NCBI GenBank assembly: GCA_028710605.1
Contig: JAQTTU010000003.1
Coordinates: forward strand, 1 to 64,000
Direction of reading: 5' to 3'
Source of the DNA: Sideroxydans sp.
Lineage (GTDB): Bacteria > Pseudomonadota > Gammaproteobacteria > Burkholderiales > Gallionellaceae
Length of the DNA: 64,000 nucleotides
Shown: positions 25,062-31,666 of the stretch, one piece after another
Layout of the letters: the number at the start of each line of letters is the position of its first letter
How positions within the stretch are numbered: the stretch's first letter is position 1
Notes under the pieces: generated by a model
What the model was told of the DNA's origin: nothing
Database searches by the model: none
The model's input: the letters and a program-made list of their open reading frames with translations, nothing else
Program-made: the position numbers and the translations under genes

Positions 25062-25862
25062 ATGCTGAAATTTTCCAAATTCGCTCTGCTGTCCGCGCTG
25101 CTGGTCATCGCCGCCGGAGCGCAGGCTGCCGATGAAAAACCGGCTGCCGAGAAATCCGCCGCACTGGTGAACGGCGTTTCCATCCCGCAATCGCGCGTCG
25201 ATCTGCTGGTCAAATACGCCACCGCGCAAGGCGAGCAAACCGATACGCCGGAACTGCGCCAGCGCGTGCGCGAAGAGCTCATCACCAACGAAGTGCTGTC
25301 GCAAGCCGCCGTCAAAAACGGCTTGGACAAACAACCCGATGTCGTGCAGCAAATCGAGTTTTCCAGGCAAAGCATTCTGTCCAACGCCTTCGCGCAGGAC
25401 TACATCAAGAACCATCCTATCGGCGACGATGTGTTGAAGCAGGACTACGAAGCGTTCAAGGCGCGCATCGGCAGCAAGGAATACAAGATTGCGCACATTC
25501 AGGTCGCCACCGAAGCTGAAGCCAAAGCCATCGCCAAGCGCTTGAAGAAAGAAAAGTTCGCCAAGGTCGCCAAGGAAAAATCGCTGGATCCCGGAGCCAA
25601 GGAAAGCGGCGGCGATCTGGGTTGGACCGTACCTTCCAACCTGCCGCCCTCATTCGCGGAAGCCATCGTCAAACTGGGCAAAGGCCAAATCAGCGAACCG
25701 GCACAAACCCAGCGCGGCTGGCACATCATCAAGCTGGAAGATACGCGCGATGTGAAAATGCTGACCTTCGAAGAAATGAAGCCGCAAATCGAAAAAAGCC
25801 GCAAGCAACAAGCCGTCATGAAAGCCGTCGCCGAAATGCGCGAAAAAGCCAAGGTCGAATAA
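25062..25862 (+). CDS. Periplasmic peptidyl-prolyl cis-trans isomerase (parvulin type)
   Basis: 266 residues. A signal peptide ends at AQA (about residue 23). A SurA_N-like helical region is followed by a parvulin domain at about 140-235 (KIAHIQVATEAEA..., GGDLGWTVPSNLPPSFAEAIVKLGKGQISEPAQTQRGWHIIKLED). It should assist folding of envelope proteins. Good ribosome site AAAGGAAAG before the ATG. Followed by a rho-independent terminator. Confidence 0.92.
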   Translation: MLKFSKFALLSALLVIAAGAQAADEKPAAEKSAALVNGVSIPQSRVDLLVKYATAQGEQTDTPELRQRVREELITNEVLSQAAVKNGLDKQPDVVQQIEFSRQSILSNAFAQDYIKNHPIGDDVLKQDYEAFKARIGSKEYKIAHIQVATEAEAKAIAKRLKKEKFAKVAKEKSLDPGAKESGGDLGWTVPSNLPPSFAEAIVKLGKGQISEPAQTQRGWHIIKLEDTRDVKMLTFEEMKPQIEKSRKQQAVMKAVAEMREKAKVE

Positions 25863-25881
25863 TTCGACCGCTGCAAAAACA

Positions 25882-25913
25882 AAAAAGGACATCCGCGCGA
25901 TGTCCTTTTTTTT
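25882..25913 (+). terminator. Rho-independent terminator
   Basis: AAAAGGACATC-GCGC-GATGTCCTTTT stem with a T8 tail, 20 bp after the parvulin gene. Confidence 0.93.
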
Positions 25914-25916
25914 GCC

Positions 25917-26164
25917 AAAATATTCATCGCGCATAACCGCACATCCAGCTTCAATCTTCCCGATTGACAGCATTTCCGGCCTCCCCTAAAGTACATCCCA
26001 CTTGCAAATCCATCGGCATGCATACGACCCGCAAAGTCCGGAGCGTAGCTACCCGGCGAACCCCGCAGAACAGGAGGCTGGCGCAAGTGTTTCACACCAA
26101 AGATTTTCGTTCCGAACGGAAATCTTGCGCCAGCGGTATCTTTTGTTTGGGGAGGTATCACACA
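25917..26164 (+). promoter_or_regulatory. Promoter plus structured leader, copy A
   Basis: A 24-nt block (25917-25940) identical to copy B is followed by TTGACA (25964-25969), 17 bp and TAAAGT (25987-25992). The predicted transcript has a leader of about 165 nt. An 11-bp stem GCTGGCGCAAG/CTTGCGCCAGC (26077-26087/26124-26134) encloses a hairpin AGATTTTCGTTC/GAACGGAAATCT. GGGGAGG (26149-26155) then leads to the 52-codon gene. The conserved CAGGAGGCTGGCGCAAGT is shared with copy B. I cannot match it to a known riboswitch class. Confidence 0.7.
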
Positions 26165-26323
26165 ATGTCCATTGATCTTTCCATCTTTTCTGCGCGCCCT
26201 TGCGGCAAGTCGCGGTTTGAACCCTTTCTGTTTTTGAAAATTCCGAGCGCACTCAGTAATCAAATCGTCCATTTCCACGACCTTGCCGACCGCAAATTCC
26301 TCAAACGATTTATAGCAGCATAA
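26165..26323 (+). CDS. Small hypothetical protein, 52 residues
   Basis: ATG preceded by GGGGAGG with nine-base spacing, directly after the structured leader, which is why I accept it despite its length. The sequence MSIDLSIFSARPCGKSRFEP... has no signal peptide. Its end (LSNQIVHFHDLADRKFLKRF) faintly recalls the N-terminal region of 4'-phosphopantetheinyl transferases, so it may be a truncated remnant; this is a weak resemblance only. Confidence 0.5.
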   Translation: MSIDLSIFSARPCGKSRFEPFLFLKIPSALSNQIVHFHDLADRKFLKRFIAA

Positions 26324-26392
26324 GCAGTAGCAACGCAGGTGCAGTCAGTTGTCCCGAACGTCCATTCTTACTACCCACAAAGGAGAAACATT

Positions 26393-27271
26393 ATGGCAAC
26401 ACTCATTGGATACGCAGTCCCGTTAAGCCTTCCCATGCCAAAACTAAGCGAATTGGCGGATCACACTTATGTGCGCACTGCCGACGGTCGCGGCGTATGG
26501 GGATGCTGGGGCAGATCGGATGGCGGAGCAGAAATATGCCGGGGCGGCGGCAGTTCAAAACAGGCAGATTGCTATTCTCAACCTTGGGGAACGACGGGGA
26601 TCGTTTACGGCGTTACCGGAGTCTGCCATCAAACGGCCAACCGGATTTTGTATCCGGCCGGGGCAATCGTTTCTGGAGCCCACGGCTACTGGCTATCATC
26701 TGCCGTGTACGGCACTTACGGCGACGCGATCGGCTGGGCGGCTAAACGCTTGGCGTGCTATTGGACTGGCGGCGACAAATTGGCAAGAGCATCGCTGAAA
26801 GCCATGCCTGAAAAGGCAAGCGATGCCAAGCTGGCAACAGCTCAAAACAATGATGACGCGGAGTACACCAAGGAAATAATCGCCTTGTATGAAGAAGTCG
26901 CAAATGCACCGAACAATTTCGCCGCAAAAAAAGGGGCGGCACCTTCTTACTTGAGCAGAGAGCTGGAAATTGCGATGAAATACAAACTCGGCAAGAAAGC
27001 CAATTCGGACAATGCCAGTGCGGCAATTCAGATACAAAAGGAGTTGCATGCGGAATTGAACAAACTGGTCGATGGGCTATACAGCGAAGCACTTACCCCG
27101 GCAGAATATGCCAATCAGGCCAATGATCTTTTTAACAAGAAATTCAAATCGATCAACGGCGAGATTGGCAAAGCCAATTACCAGAAGTTGTTCAATATTG
27201 CGCCGGAGGTGAAGCTGTTGCTGATCAACCCCGAAGTAATGACCAAACCGCACAAGGCTATCGACCTGTAA
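26393..27271 (+). CDS. Hypothetical Cys/His-motif protein, 292 residues
   Basis: ATG with AGGAG seven bases upstream. The N-terminal half is rich in Gly, Trp and Cys: HTYVRTADGRGVWGCWG, EICRGGG, ADCYSQPWGTTGIVYGVTGVCHQTANRIL. The ordered Cys and CHQ with an early His suggest a conserved thiol-enzyme-like or metal-binding domain, but I cannot name a family. The C-terminal half (about 140-292) is charged and helical. No signal peptide. It is the main gene of cassette A, downstream of the leader. Confidence 0.7.
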   Translation: MATLIGYAVPLSLPMPKLSELADHTYVRTADGRGVWGCWGRSDGGAEICRGGGSSKQADCYSQPWGTTGIVYGVTGVCHQTANRILYPAGAIVSGAHGYWLSSAVYGTYGDAIGWAAKRLACYWTGGDKLARASLKAMPEKASDAKLATAQNNDDAEYTKEIIALYEEVANAPNNFAAKKGAAPSYLSRELEIAMKYKLGKKANSDNASAAIQIQKELHAELNKLVDGLYSEALTPAEYANQANDLFNKKFKSINGEIGKANYQKLFNIAPEVKLLLINPEVMTKPHKAIDL

Positions 27272-27329
27272 GCGCTTGGAGCGGCAACCGGTTTACCCGA
27301 CCGGTTGCCGTTATCAAAACGGAGATGCC

Positions 27330-27740
27330 ATGAATAAAATATCCGAGCAAGAATTTATACATAGAGTGGCAAACATACCGTTGACGGTTTTGCGGAACAC
27401 CAGTCTGCGCAATATATTCACCCCCTTTTCCAGGCGTTGTCAGGAGCAGGAATTTGAATTCACAATAGACCATAAATTGGGAACAGATTTTCCGGCGGAT
27501 AAACGCCAGCGCATGAGAGAGATATTCTGCCCCTTCAACATTAATAAAAATTCTCTTCTCAAGAAATACAAACAAGGGGCAGTATCCGGCGAGCAATTCG
27601 CGCAGCAAATGCAATTGCTGCTGGATGATTTGATCGCAAAATATTCGCAAGTTTTGTCCGCAGATGAATTAAATTCATTTTTGGGTGTTGCGCCAAACTC
27701 ACACGCATCCTTTCCGTTCGACCCTCACCAATCGGATTAG
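27330..27740 (+). CDS. Hypothetical protein, 136 residues
   Basis: ATG with GGAG five bases upstream, 58 bp after the Cys/His-motif gene. Charged, mostly helical, no membrane segment. Segments such as FPADKRQRMREIFCPFNINKNSLLKKYKQGAVSGEQFAQQMQLLLDDLIAKY resemble the charged C-terminal region of the preceding protein in character (long helices ending in a Leu-rich part), so the two may cooperate. Function unknown. AT-richer than the surrounding genes. Confidence 0.6.
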   Translation: MNKISEQEFIHRVANIPLTVLRNTSLRNIFTPFSRRCQEQEFEFTIDHKLGTDFPADKRQRMREIFCPFNINKNSLLKKYKQGAVSGEQFAQQMQLLLDDLIAKYSQVLSADELNSFLGVAPNSHASFPFDPHQSD

Positions 27741-27783
27741 ATAAACCTGTATTTTTTTGCAGCCTCTTTCAATAATTTCCCGC

Positions 27784-28015
27784 AAAATATTCATCGCGCA
27801 TAACCGCTCAACCCCCTTCAATCTTCCCGATTGACAGCTATTCCGGCCTCCCCTAAAGTTCACTCCACTTGCATTTCCGATCCACGCACATCGCGCCGCA
27901 CGCACGGCACGAGGCTACAGCGGAATCCCCGGTTCAGGAGGCTGGCGCAAGTCGAAATTCCCGCGCATAAGGGAATCATCGCCAGCGGCATCACTTGTTC
28001 CAAAGGGGATTCATC
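27784..28015 (+). promoter_or_regulatory. Promoter plus structured leader, copy B
   Basis: Shares with copy A the 24-nt upstream block (27784-27807), TTGACA (27831-27836), 17 bp, TAAAGT (27854-27859) and CAGGAGGCTGGCGCAAGT. The outer stem GCTGGCG/CGCCAGC (27941-27947/27980-27986) is kept. The inner hairpin is kept as a structure but with different bases, ATTCCC/GGGAAT. AAGGGG then precedes the DUF6765-like gene. Confidence 0.7.
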
Positions 28016-28495
28016 ATGCAAATCGATTTTCATCATGCCACCACGTATGTGGTCGCCCGCGATGCCGGGTTCAGCCACGACGATGCAAACGTCATCGCTT
28101 ACGCCGCGCAGTATGTGGACGATGCCACCAGTTCCGGCACTATCCTGTTCGACAACCGCGCCGCGTACAACCGCATCAGCTCCGCGCACAAGATGCTCGA
28201 TGCGCGCAACGCCGAAGAACTGGCCAACCATTACGTGTGGATGTCGTTTCACTTTCTGCCCGGCAACGGCGGCTTTGCGGCGGGCGAAAATCCCGCCGGA
28301 TCTTTCGATGCGATTCTGGCCAAAGGTTGCAGCTACGGCTGGCACCGGCTGGGCACCAGCCACGATCTGCCCGTGCATTGTTACAAACCCAACTTTTTGG
28401 GCAGCCATTGGAAACATTTCCATGACGCGATTCAGGCACACCGTTTCAACGTGGTTTACAACATCCTGCCCAAGTACGGCATCTGCGCCGCGTAA
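28016..28495 (+). CDS. DUF6765-like conserved hypothetical protein
   Basis: 159 residues. MQIDFHHATTYVVARDAGFSHDDANVIAYAAQYVDDATSSGTI...ISSAHKML...VWMSFHFLPGNGG is a pattern I associate with the uncharacterised DUF6765 group. The repeated His/Asp (FHHATTY, YVDDAT, SAHKML, FHFLPG) resemble a metal-dependent phosphohydrolase-like helical core; this is inference. ATG with AAGGGG seven bases upstream. First gene of cassette B, followed by the lipase 45 bp later. Confidence 0.7.
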   Translation: MQIDFHHATTYVVARDAGFSHDDANVIAYAAQYVDDATSSGTILFDNRAAYNRISSAHKMLDARNAEELANHYVWMSFHFLPGNGGFAAGENPAGSFDAILAKGCSYGWHRLGTSHDLPVHCYKPNFLGSHWKHFHDAIQAHRFNVVYNILPKYGICAA

Positions 28496-28540: not shown

Positions 28541-29353
28541 ATGACAACAACGTGGGACGATTTGCTCTACCCCGGCAATGCCAACGACTTTTTTTCGCGC
28601 AGGACTTTCGCGCCGTTCGACCCTTCCAGCGGCGCGTACGACCAGAATAACGCGCTGTGGCTCGCCGAATTGAGCCGACTGGTTTACCGGCACGACATCG
28701 AAGAAAACGACCCGCCGCCGCACCCCACGCAGACCCATATTCTCGAACAGGCCGGATGCACGCGGCGACAATACTTCGGCTCGAACATCACCGGCACACA
28801 AGCCATACTGGCCGAATTCGGCGGCGCAACCCCCTTCGCCGTGCTGGCATTTCGCGGCACCGAACAAGAGCCACGGGATTTCGTCACCGACCTCACCCTC
28901 GGCAGATTGCGCCAGCGCGAAGGCAAGATCGACGTGCATGAAGGATTCAAAGCGGCGCTGGATTCCGTGTGGCGCGAAATCGAAAGCGCGCTGAAAGAAC
29001 TGCGCTGCCCGGTGTTCTTCACCGGCCATAGTCTGGGCGCAGCGTTAGCCACGCTGGCCGCCGCGCGCCGCACGCCGACCGCGCTCTACACCTACGGCTC
29101 GCCGCGCGTGGGCGATGCGGATTTCACGGCCTCGCTCAAAGACATCGCCGACATCATCCACCGCGTGGTGGACAGCGAAGACGGCGTAACCAGCCTGCCG
29201 CCCGAAGCGCTCGGCTACCGCCACATCGGCACACTGCACACGCTCTCCGCCCCGCCAGCGCACAACTCCTTCGCCACATGGTTAACCGGCTGGCGCAACC
29301 CGCCGAAATTTCTGGCAGACCACGCGCCGGTCAATTATGTGGACAGGATTTGA
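28541..29353 (+). CDS. Class 3 lipase family protein
   Basis: 270 residues, alpha/beta hydrolase. The nucleophile elbow TGHSLGAALATLAA holds the catalytic Ser, the oxyanion region is LAFRGTEQEPRDFVTDL, the Asp lies near DSEDGVTSLPP and the His near PAHNSF. The N-terminus has no classical signal peptide. Likely hydrolyses acylglycerols or related esters. Second gene of cassette B behind the structured leader. The stop is followed by two repeats. Confidence 0.9.
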   Translation: MTTTWDDLLYPGNANDFFSRRTFAPFDPSSGAYDQNNALWLAELSRLVYRHDIEENDPPPHPTQTHILEQAGCTRRQYFGSNITGTQAILAEFGGATPFAVLAFRGTEQEPRDFVTDLTLGRLRQREGKIDVHEGFKAALDSVWREIESALKELRCPVFFTGHSLGAALATLAAARRTPTALYTYGSPRVGDADFTASLKDIADIIHRVVDSEDGVTSLPPEALGYRHIGTLHTLSAPPAHNSFATWLTGWRNPPKFLADHAPVNYVDRI

Positions 29354-29462: not shown

Positions 29463-29530
29463 GAAGATGCCCGTCAATAGGCGATCTACGCCAAGCGCAT
29501 AATGCAGATCGCCTATTGACGGGCATCTTC
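29463..29530. repeat. GTCAATA-loop repeat, copy 5 (inverted pair)
   Basis: Two head-to-head copies form perfect 25-bp arms (29463-29487 and 29506-29530) around an 18-bp spacer. It lies between the convergent lipase and yceH genes and could act as a bidirectional terminator. Confidence 0.95.
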
Positions 29531-29539
29531 ACGCGATGG

Positions 29540-30205
29540 TTATTTTGAAATTCCCAGCTCCGCGTACAGCTTGCCCACCAGCTCCCGCAGTTCGGTTATC
29601 TCCGCTTCATGCTTGGCGACGTTGGCTTTGAGTGCGGCGATTTCGCTTACGGAAATATCGCCCGAGGGCGCAGAAGAGAATGAGGTACGCGCTTCGATGA
29701 CGGGCGCGCCGGACAGCAAATGCATCCAGCGGTTTTCGCGCGAGCCGGGTTGGCGCGGCAATTCCACCACCAGCGCGCCCGCCGCGCGTTCGCTCAATTC
29801 CACCAGAAAACTTTCCACCGATGAAATGTCGGCGAACTTGTGCAGCCGTTCGCAATTGAGGCGCAGCTCGCCCGCCGTCTGCGGGCCGCGCAACATCAGC
29901 ATGGCGATCAGCGCGGTGGATTGCGTGGGGATGTGCTGCACGCGCTCGATGTTGTGCGCATAACGCGAAGCCCTGCCGCCGCTGCTTTCCACGATCAGAG
30001 ACAAACCGCGCAGCGTATCCAGCGCCAGCAACACCTCCGATTCGTCAGCCTCGATCACCGGATCGCGCGCGCTTTTTTGGTTGCAGCCGGAGACCAGCGA
30101 ATTGAGCGTCAGCGGATAACTGTCCGGCACGGTGCGCTGCTTCTCGGCGAGCACGCCGAGTACGCGGGTTTCGAGCAGGGAGAGGATGGGGAGTGTGGTG
30201 GTCAT
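29540..30205 (-). CDS. yceH: YceH family protein (DUF480)
   Basis: 221 residues. ETRVLGVLAEKQRTVPDSYPLTLNSLVSGCNQKSARDPV is the typical winged-helix start of YceH, followed by a second winged helix and a C-terminal coiled coil (SEIAALKANVAKHEAEITELRELVGKLYAEL). Cytosolic, possibly DNA-binding; role unproven. Confidence 0.93.
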   Translation of the reverse strand: MTTTLPILSLLETRVLGVLAEKQRTVPDSYPLTLNSLVSGCNQKSARDPVIEADESEVLLALDTLRGLSLIVESSGGRASRYAHNIERVQHIPTQSTALIAMLMLRGPQTAGELRLNCERLHKFADISSVESFLVELSERAAGALVVELPRQPGSRENRWMHLLSGAPVIEARTSFSSAPSGDISVSEIAALKANVAKHEAEITELRELVGKLYAELGISK

Positions 30206-30266
30206 GAATTATCTTTGAAGAAACAAAAAGTACTTTGCCCGCAGATTACGCAGATTAAGTAAGTAT

Positions 30267-30350: not shown

Positions 30351-31666
30351 AATTTTGTGTAAACGGTCATTAGGCAGGAAACTGCCGCCACTTTGAAAGG
30401 AGTCGCAATGACCGTAGCACAAGCAGCCCCCGCAATCCCCGCCGACCTGATCGACAGCCTCATGGCGGGATACCAAAAACCGGAAGACCTGATAGGCGAA
30501 AACGGCCTGCTCAAACAGATCACCAAAGCCTTCGTCGAGCGCGCCCTGCAAGCCGAGATGGAAATCCACCTCGGGCACTCCAAGAACCGCAGCGTGGTCA
30601 ACCCGGACGGCAACACCCGCAACGGCAAGAGCCGCAAGACGCTCAAGGGCGAGTTCGGCGAACTGCCCATCGAAATACCCCGCGACCGCCACGGCAGCTT
30701 CGAGCAGCAGCTCATCCCCAAGCACCAGACCCACTGGCACGGCTTCGACGACAAAATCCTGTCGCTCTACGCCCGGGGCATGACGGTGCGCGAGATACAG
30801 GGGCATCTGGAAGAGATGTACGGCACCGAGGTTTCGCCCTCGCTCATCTCGTCCGTCACCGATGCCGTCATGGACGAGGTCAAAGCCTGGCAATCGCGCC
30901 CGCTGGACGCGCTGTACCCCATCGTCTATATGGACTGCATCCACGCCAAGGTGCGCGATGCGGGCGCGGTGCGCACCAAGGCCGTGTATCTGGCGCTGGG
31001 CATCAACATGGCGGGCGAGAAGGAACTGCTGGGCATCTGGATCGCCCAGACCGAGGGGGCGAAGTTCTGGTTGCAGGTGGTGACCGAACTGAAGAACCGG
31101 GGCGTGCAGGACATCTTCATCGCCTGCGTGGACGGCCTGAAAGGCTTCCCCGAGGCCATCGAAAGCGTCTATCCCAAGACCGCCGTGCAGCTGTGCATCG
31201 TGCATATGGTGCGTTACAGCTTGAACTACGTGAGCTGGAAACTGCGCAAGGAAATCGCCGCCGATCTGCGCACCATCTACACTGCCGCCACCGTCGAGGG
31301 AGCGGAGCAGCGGCTGGACGAGTTCGAAACCAAGTGGGGGAAAGACTATCCATCCATCGTCAAATCGTGGAGGGGCAACTGGGCGCGCATCATCCCGTTC
31401 TTCGATTACCCGCTGGAGATCAGGAAGGTGATCTACACCACCAACGCCATCGAGTCGGTGAACATGGGGCTGCGCAAAGTTTCCAAGAGCCGGGGATCGT
31501 TCCCCAGCGATGAGGCGCTGTTGAAGCTGTACTATCTGGCGCTGAAAAACATCAGCAAGAAATGGACGATGCCGATACGAGATTGGAAGGCCGCGCTAAA
31601 CCGGTTTAATATCCAGTTCGAGGATAGGATGCCGCAGCAGTTTTGAAATTCCGTTTACACAAAATT
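30351..31666 (+). mobile_element. IS256-family insertion sequence
   Basis: 1316 bp bounded by perfect 16-bp inverted repeats AATTTTGTGTAAACGG (30351-30366; complement 31651-31666). One transposase gene fills it. No matching 8-9 bp target duplication is visible at the borders, so a flank may have been deleted or rearranged. It cuts a toxin gene on its right side. Confidence 0.9.
30408..31646 (+). CDS. IS256-family transposase
   Basis: 412 residues, full length for the family, with the DDE residues in YPIVYMDCIHAKV (first D), IACVDGLKGFPEAI (second D) and TTNAIESVN (E). The frame is intact, so it may still be active. ATG preceded by AAAGGAG. Mutator-like motif HIVRY-type region CIVHMVRYSLNYV is present. 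Confidence 0.96.
   Translation: MTVAQAAPAIPADLIDSLMAGYQKPEDLIGENGLLKQITKAFVERALQAEMEIHLGHSKNRSVVNPDGNTRNGKSRKTLKGEFGELPIEIPRDRHGSFEQQLIPKHQTHWHGFDDKILSLYARGMTVREIQGHLEEMYGTEVSPSLISSVTDAVMDEVKAWQSRPLDALYPIVYMDCIHAKVRDAGAVRTKAVYLALGINMAGEKELLGIWIAQTEGAKFWLQVVTELKNRGVQDIFIACVDGLKGFPEAIESVYPKTAVQLCIVHMVRYSLNYVSWKLRKEIAADLRTIYTAATVEGAEQRLDEFETKWGKDYPSIVKSWRGNWARIIPFFDYPLEIRKVIYTTNAIESVNMGLRKVSKSRGSFPSDEALLKLYYLALKNISKKWTMPIRDWKAALNRFNIQFEDRMPQQF

Follow-up and report, generated by a model that had tools for sequence, protein, structure and literature searches.

Two Leaders at One Locus

The window considered here is a 64,000-nucleotide (nt) stretch of a contig from the iron-oxidizing bacterium Sideroxydans sp. 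(JAQTTU010000003.1, positions 1 to 64,000 of the forward strand), whose segment from 25917 to 28015 carries two similar promoters, each followed by a structured RNA leader (A and B) and by different genes. Leader B is a typical member, and leader A a divergent one, of a real and apparently undescribed family of 5′ leader RNAs with a riboswitch-like build and a length of about 160 nt. The family probably represents a cis-acting, bistable, riboswitch-like translational switch of the Gallionellaceae, copied together with its promoter in front of accessory genes. The features of the locus are listed below; helix P0 and states 1 and 2 belong to the two folds described in a later section.

25917–25940 (+): 24-nt block of copy A; site flank, outside the RNA family
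25964–25992 (+): promoter A, TTGACA-17-TAAAGT, of the type common to 130/147 copies
26000–26164 (+): leader RNA A, divergent; predicted start 7 nt past the −10 hexamer
26001–26005 (+): 5′ strand of P0 (CUUGC), leader A; state 1 partner at 26083–26087
26077–26087 (+): shared switch strand GCTGGCGCAAG, leader A
26100–26126 (+): inner hairpin AAGATTTTCGTTCC...GGAAATCTT, leader A
26128–26134 (+): CGCCAGC, leader A; state 2 partner of the switch strand
26149–26152 (+): GGGG of the ribosome-binding region, leader A
26165–26323 (+): short open reading frame (ORF) behind leader A, 52 codons and stop
26393–27271 (+): 292-amino-acid (aa) protein; no Pfam match (E≤0.001), no PADLOC match (E≤1e-5)
27330–27740 (+): 136-aa protein; no Pfam match
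27784–27807 (+): 24-nt block, copy B, identical to that of A
27831–27859 (+): promoter B, TTGACA-17-TAAAGT
27867–28015 (+): leader RNA B; predicted start; model E 2e-37
27868–27872 (+): 5′ strand of P0 (CUUGC), leader B (row L018 of alignment A2); state 1 partner at 27947–27951
27941–27951 (+): shared switch strand GCTGGCGCAAG, leader B
27957–27976 (+): inner hairpin ATTCCC...GGGAAT, leader B
27980–27986 (+): CGCCAGC, leader B; state 2 partner of the switch strand
28005–28008 (+): GGGG of the ribosome-binding region, leader B; state 2 pairing with upstream CCCC
28016–28495 (+): DUF6765 protein, 159 aa, covering just positions 1–94 of the 325-position profile
28541–29353 (+): class 3 lipase (Lipase_3)

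A and B form a direct repeat of three blocks with lengths of 96, 33, and 20 nt and identities of 89%, 79%, and 85%, respectively, at a spacing of 1852–1867 nt, and the aligned leaders share 83% mean column identity. The sequence CAGGAGGCTGGCGCAAGT occurs at 26071–26088 and 27935–27952, with no further exact match in the 3.36-Mb genome. An earlier note, made from the letters of this DNA, had placed here two leaders, the 24-nt block, and the TTGACA-17-TAAAGT promoters; all are present at those positions, the block is exact in both copies, and the genes behind A are unrelated to those behind B. The outer stem GCTGGCG/CGCCAGC that it described is likewise kept in both leaders, with inner hairpins of unlike sequence. 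Its proposal that the block is an activator site fared differently: among the loci examined, the block is confined to A, B, and one relative’s orthologous locus and therefore looks like flanking sequence of the site.

The minimum free energy of leader A lies 3.4 standard deviations under that of its shuffles (0/200 equal it), and that of leader B lies 1.95 standard deviations under (7/200 equal it). A covariance model built from relatives, with B included and A left out, gives B a score of 147 bits (E 2e-37) and A one of just 43.8 bits (E 1.7e-9). Copy A is also among the weakest copies in a search of its own genome (58 bits), which marks it as a divergent member. No intrinsic terminator was found on the + strand in 25850–28100, and a U run is absent from the alignment consensus. 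An isrD hit in Rfam at 25881–25926 on the minus strand, below the gathering score, was discarded, as it sits on a terminator-like hairpin beside the upstream gene.

Distribution of the Leader Family

A blastn search with B retrieves copies in 31 of 61 genomes, comprising 30 of the 34 of the genus (its own included) and one of another genus; many of the matches start just past the −10 hexamer and end near the start codon. Twenty-nine copies from 38 places, B among them and A not, were aligned on sequence alone (alignment A2) as the basis of the covariance model; the remainder consisted of five with insertions, an odd layout, or a weak match, together with L036, L043, L046, and L030:2545. At E≤0.01 the model finds the leader in 68 of 120 Gallionellaceae genomes (a few by near-threshold matches alone), in 9 of 15 genera, and in 31 of the 34 Sideroxydans genomes. 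The leader is a multicopy element, with 12 copies in the genome of the window.

Searches beyond the family, run with strict filters at the levels of order and class, returned little. Across the order (samples of 349 and 399 genomes, which include the family), one weak match lay outside the family, in G180, and the class-wide search gave the genome of the window as its sole match (1/274 genomes). The G180 locus (L131), from another family of the order, retains the leader’s 3′ half with a similar promoter, and the ORF behind it resembles by eye the peptidase downstream of L108:8696. An exact core pattern, which is much less sensitive than the covariance model, picks out 10 stretches in species genomes, nine of them Gallionellaceae-like (five from Sideroxydans, one from an uncultured member of Gallionellaceae, and three from two Gammaproteobacteria records). 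The tenth is alphaproteobacterial and was rejected, as it lies in apparent coding sequence and has no leader. Viral contigs gave no match to the exact pattern, and plasmids and phages gave none to blastn with one copy.

Neither leader matches a family in Rfam 15, at the gathering score or at a permissive threshold (E≤10 for A and B; E≤5 for the leaders of six strong-copy loci). The family was also not found in the accessible parts of the open literature on Gallionellaceae and Sideroxydans RNAs, on structured-RNA surveys, and on riboswitches with anti-phage topics, and these genera are unnamed in the main text, as far as available, of two surveys of new noncoding RNAs (PMC11109978, PMC8632094). 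The Rfam search with both leaders, the covariance model from relatives, and the listing of downstream genes had all been proposed in the earlier note.

Promoter and Predicted Transcript Start

Ahead of 130 of 147 distinct copies lies a promoter that consists of TTGACA (125 copies) or a variant, a spacer of 17 or 18 nt, and TA[A/C/G]AGT, TACATT, or TAGTGT. Among the 17 misses, three are copies in which the model match begins after an insertion and the promoter is located further upstream. Four others precede genes of the PAS-GGDEF-EAL type (one assigned by Pfam and three by sequence cluster) and keep the RNA behind another upstream region. Assuming the usual 7 nt from the promoter, the transcript would start at or adjoining ACUUGC, and the promoter and its position suggest that the element is transcribed as a leader.

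Two Mutually Exclusive Folds

The family is a conserved, structured 5′ leader with covariation, as is expected of a riboswitch, and its covariation supports two folds that exclude each other, one of which reaches the ribosome-binding site. State 1 comprises P0, in which CUUGC of the predicted 5′ end pairs with GCAAG, along with P1, P1b, P2, and P3. State 2 also contains P1 and P2, to which it adds AACAGG/CUUGUU, GCUGGCG/CGCCAGC, and a CCCC/GGGG helix that involves the ribosome-binding region. Both states draw on the strand GCUGGCGCAAG, whose partner lies near the predicted 5′ end in state 1 (P0, P3) and ahead of the ribosome-binding site in state 2.

On A2, state 1 has 90.7% of cells paired and double changes at 13 of 30 pairs, with 0/500 shuffles equal on both measures, and state 2 has 87.4% paired and double changes at 16 of 39 pairs. 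Since both structures were drawn partly from A2, they were tested on 46 other copies, which were found with the state 1 model and aligned by sequence with one reference (alignment A6). These represent 46 of 66 matches; of the rest, 7 were in A2 already, 8 were long, partial, or degenerate, and 5 (L216, L217, L221, L224, and L213:4295) were omitted for no structural reason. In A6, state 1 is 87.8% paired with double changes at 19 of 30 pairs, and state 2 is 85.0% paired with double changes at 22 of 39, while slid controls are 31–46% paired. Some slid controls equal the number of state 2 pairs with double changes (22 at +1) but with far fewer such cells (56 versus 98).

P0 is 97.4% paired in A6 with double changes at 2 of its 5 pairs, and at 3 of 5 in a larger alignment (A3, 103 distinct rows) that was fitted to state 1, so that its pair counts rest on a fitted alignment. 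The CCCC/GGGG helix is 92.3% paired in A6, and 3 of its 5 pairs have changed on both sides. Across 96 copies, the pairing of the switch strand with its own 3′ region is stronger than that of dinucleotide shuffles, with a mean z of −1.8 and p≤0.05 in 54 copies; these tests are not independent because the copies are related.

The homologous leaders in many genomes and their compensatory changes bear out the view of the earlier note that this is a conserved RNA and more than a copied promoter, as do the four copies that keep the RNA without the usual promoter. The second exclusive fold, the family-wide spread, and the cargo had escaped that note.

Folding Energies and Conserved Loops

State 2 is lower in energy in 86 of 90 copies (median 6.65 kcal/mol), and the overall best fold holds P0 in 3 of 90. 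When only the 5′ part is folded, P0 appears in 57 of 90. Together, these values suit a switch in which the 5′ junction would form first and be lost unless stabilized.

Among the unpaired positions, the P2 loop C-A-n-G-n-A and several letters of the P3 loop are nearly invariant, as expected for a binding site. Repeat-like insertions, surveyed by eye, number 14 in 12 copies (8 in the P3 loop, 3 between P0 and P1, and 3 in the inner hairpin loop). The survey covered 14 copies picked for a long or weak match, and copies broken by an insertion could escape it. The remaining two of the 14 misfit: the degenerate copy L207:1407 no longer has P3, and L016 carries extra sequence in place of its inner hairpin. 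A GC-rich hairpin repeat (GGGTGGCGGCGCAGCCGCCGGGCACCC... and variants) is inserted in leader loops of L102, L079, L111, L040, L112, L104, L188, L172, L213, and L042.

A leader with a ribosome-binding region that is paired in the predicted ground state could also act as an RNA thermometer, or as a kinetic switch that needs no ligand and answers temperature or the speed of transcription or translation. TTGACA followed by CCCCTAAAGT is reminiscent of heat-shock promoters, which would agree with such a role. However, thermometers rarely need invariant unpaired loop letters, and here the P2 and P3 loops are nearly invariant; moreover, the leaders match no Rfam family of any kind. This explanation thus appears improbable.

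The same loops may instead be read by a protein or a small RNA that switches the leader in trans (e.g., through the AACAGGAG loop) with no small molecule involved, an alternative with a reasonable but lesser chance of being correct. A trans factor common to all copies would account for a large and mixed regulon. In 80 of 96 copies, a GGA lies at most 14 nt upstream of CTGGCGCAAG and within a hairpin loop, an arrangement that resembles a CsrA site. Against this, CsrA (PF02599) was found in none of 41 genomes (25 of the genus) and in 3 of 14 control genomes, a search that did not extend to other proteins or small RNAs.

Downstream Genes and a Possible Link to Defense

A called gene of at least 100 aa starts on the same strand within 1.7 kb in 131 of 147 copies versus 78 of 160 control places. 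The cargo is diverse. Pfam assigns the downstream genes to lipases, phospholipase A1, peptidases, transglutaminase, methyltransferases, HDOD, MCP, ORF6N, and others, as well as to GGDEF/EAL proteins with CHASE, PAS, or Cache domains behind some copies; several downstream proteins have no Pfam match. One methyltransferase cluster neighbors 16 of 103 copies. Near 23 of 103 copies (L101, L030, L022, L035, L039, and others) lies a small protein family starting MEMKKINSGKLRAIGYDAR..., which resembles KTSC-domain proteins. A weak copy in the genome of the window (L017, C3:222177-222358, E 1.7e-7) lies about 230 nt ahead of a Cas9-like gene. In the window itself, a single-sequence structure model of the 292-aa protein was set aside for its low confidence (mean predicted local distance difference test score 40.6). 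The DUF6765 gene looks altered or shortened, its relatives at L019 and L109 being 354 and 340 aa against 159 aa here.

The GGDEF/EAL proteins, together with CGCAAAG-like pieces in copy A that the earlier note had also remarked on, would be the grounds for regarding the leader as a divergent c-di-GMP-I (GEMM) riboswitch. This is highly improbable: even at the permissive thresholds given above no Rfam match was obtained, the CGCAAAG-like pieces are not conserved across the family, and no GGDEF gene occurs among the Pfam-scanned genes behind the copies in the genome of the window. A c-di-GMP theme for the cargo was likewise rejected, because GGDEF proteins behind some copies leave the remaining cargo unexplained.

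Other cargo matches anti-phage profiles of PADLOC. In a set of 10 downstream proteins, GajA of Gabija, encoded 87 nt behind a leader in the genome of the window, matches at E 6e-216, and others match AriAB (1e-210), Old (6e-196), PD-Lambda-5_A (7e-121), and Hp1 (3e-65), with 2 of 10 lacking a match. A further 10 include KwaB (1e-126) and PDC-S08 (9e-138), with 5 of 10 lacking a match at 1e-5. A further 20 include SIR2, Orf5, PDC-S06, PDC-S60, and an Old/AriA-like protein, with 15 of 20 lacking a match at 1e-25. Under a threshold of E≤1e-30, 56 families are represented among the 103 case clusters (25 of the 56 listed), compared with 4 among the 86 control clusters. Strong anti-phage matches occur in at least 15 of the 103 case clusters versus 1–2 of the 86 controls (Fisher p 0.001 to 0.004). 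The 15 consist of 10 identified clusters and at least five deduced from families that cannot belong to those same proteins (PD-Lambda-5_B, HamA, LmuA/LmuB, MTase_II, and a second PDC-S06). The gene caller missed some real genes, and the Kiwa pair of L184 lies outside the 103 clusters.

The downstream genes are thus enriched in defense-like matches over random genes; because random genes served as the control, the excess may reflect accessory genes in general. In the reverse direction, the 120 family genomes contain 2 Gabija, 6 Kiwa, and 5 Hachiman loci, and a leader is present at 3 of these 13. All three are index cases, which were set aside because they led to the choice of these systems, leaving none of 10 with a leader. 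A rather doubtful extension of the switch model is that the family serves this lineage as a shared plug-in regulator of immunity: a single signal, possibly a metabolite whose level shifts during phage attack or stress, would free the translation of many unrelated defense and effector genes together, and new defense genes would join by landing behind a leader copy.

Copy Arrays and Local History

In one relative (G017), a single leader lies between the gene that is upstream of A in the window, which is peptidyl-prolyl isomerase-like, and DUF6765. By comparison, the window has an extra 1.87-kb unit that consists of leader A and two unknown genes. A second relative (G025) has a leader–lipase arrangement at seemingly the same site, with a downstream match to window positions 29463–30223. 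The window ORF at 30393–31646, downstream of the lipase locus, resembles by eye an IS256-type transposase. Across 20 multi-match loci, all 32 adjacent pairs are co-oriented (one pair being a single split copy). Taken with the comparison to G017 and G025, this co-orientation suggests that the leader is either copied with its cargo or used as the landing place for it. Co-oriented arrays with a spacing of a few kb and a different cargo for each copy, reminiscent of cassette arrays, are seen at L015, L109, L117, L101, L108, L106, and L112.

Such arrangements could mean that the repeat is mainly a DNA element, either a recombination or insertion site or a mobile promoter, that exchanges gene cassettes, with a structure that serves DNA recombination. 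The single-strand orientation of adjacent pairs, the 1.87-kb unit between two leaders where G017 has one, and the mostly accessory cargo are all consistent with this. Its position, however, is tied to the promoter and the start region, G-U pairs are kept in the variation, as suits RNA, and copies that lack the promoter keep the RNA. In addition, no attC-like core was recognized by eye (no program being used), and a wider pair on contig C36 of G025, 18 kb apart, lies on opposite strands. An element that acts chiefly as DNA is therefore unlikely.

Proposed Mechanism

The riboswitch-like translational switch remains the preferred explanation, and its steps can be envisaged as follows. Transcription would begin at or beside ACUUGC, and the first ~95 nt, being made first, could close as a junction of P0 (CUUGC/GCAAG), P1, P2 with its C-A-n-G-n-A loop, and P3 (CC[A/G]G/CUGG) with its conserved AACAGGAG loop. 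Once the 3′ part has been made, GCUGGCGCAAG could quit the junction, pair with CGCCAGC, and build a long hairpin, the base of which would tie CCCC to GGGG beside the start codon. A signal that stabilizes the 5′ junction would leave the ribosome-binding site free and turn translation on. A metabolite could play this role; a protein or small RNA is a less likely candidate. The module of promoter and leader would have been copied before many accessory genes, of which at least about one-seventh of the protein clusters match anti-phage profiles.

Several observations weigh against this model. The variation in the GCUGGCG/CGCCAGC helix is mostly from G-C to G-U, with double changes at just 2 of 7 pairs in A2 and 1 of 7 in A6, and in 7 of 96 copies the 3′ complement of the switch strand is worse than most shuffles (p>0.5). 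P3 is formed by the 5′ part alone in just 43 of 90 copies. GGGG is paired in 68 of 85 copies in state 1 and in 82 of 85 in state 2, being free in the former and paired in the latter in 15; since its pairing prevails in either state, covariation suggests a gate at the ribosome-binding site that the energies do not show. The first called gene begins at most 5 nt from the leader end in just 28 of 131 copies, and the median distance is 120 nt, so that a short ORF or coupling would be required in many cases. The downstream genes point to no nameable ligand. Finally, the copies were found via B or the state 1 model, which biases the sample toward copies that fit.

The coordinated silencing and switch-on of many costly defense systems in bacteria is poorly understood. 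If the model is correct, a common RNA leader before unrelated defense genes would constitute a layer of RNA control whose signal could be traced through one RNA. The link to defense aside, the leaders form a large family of regulatory RNAs, apparently undescribed, in which two folds covary and whose hosts are hard to culture.

Comparison with Known Systems

The leader resembles translational riboswitches, orphan candidates included, in its junction-like 5′ domain, its invariant loop letters, the strand shared by two exclusive folds, the helix that would occlude the ribosome-binding site, and its position before start codons. In contrast to them, it is restricted to a single bacterial family within the genomes sampled. 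It also differs from riboswitches of one pathway in that the 12 copies in the genome of the window precede unrelated accessory genes. The c-di-GMP-I riboswitch is also found in many copies before unrelated genes; unlike it, the present family has no counterpart in Rfam.

Two systems tie regulation to defense genes, as far as the accessible parts of the respective reports describe them. WYL-domain transcriptional regulators co-localize with diverse phage-defense systems, such that one type of regulator is common to unrelated systems, as may be the case here (PMC9122601). However, WYL regulators are proteins that act on transcription, whereas the shared element here is an RNA leader. In Vibrio cholerae, an island of defense genes is inserted in the cobalamin riboswitch upstream of btuB, again placing defense genes at a riboswitch locus (PMC12409358). 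In that case, a single island uses the riboswitch as its insertion site, whereas here the leader is repeated before each cargo.

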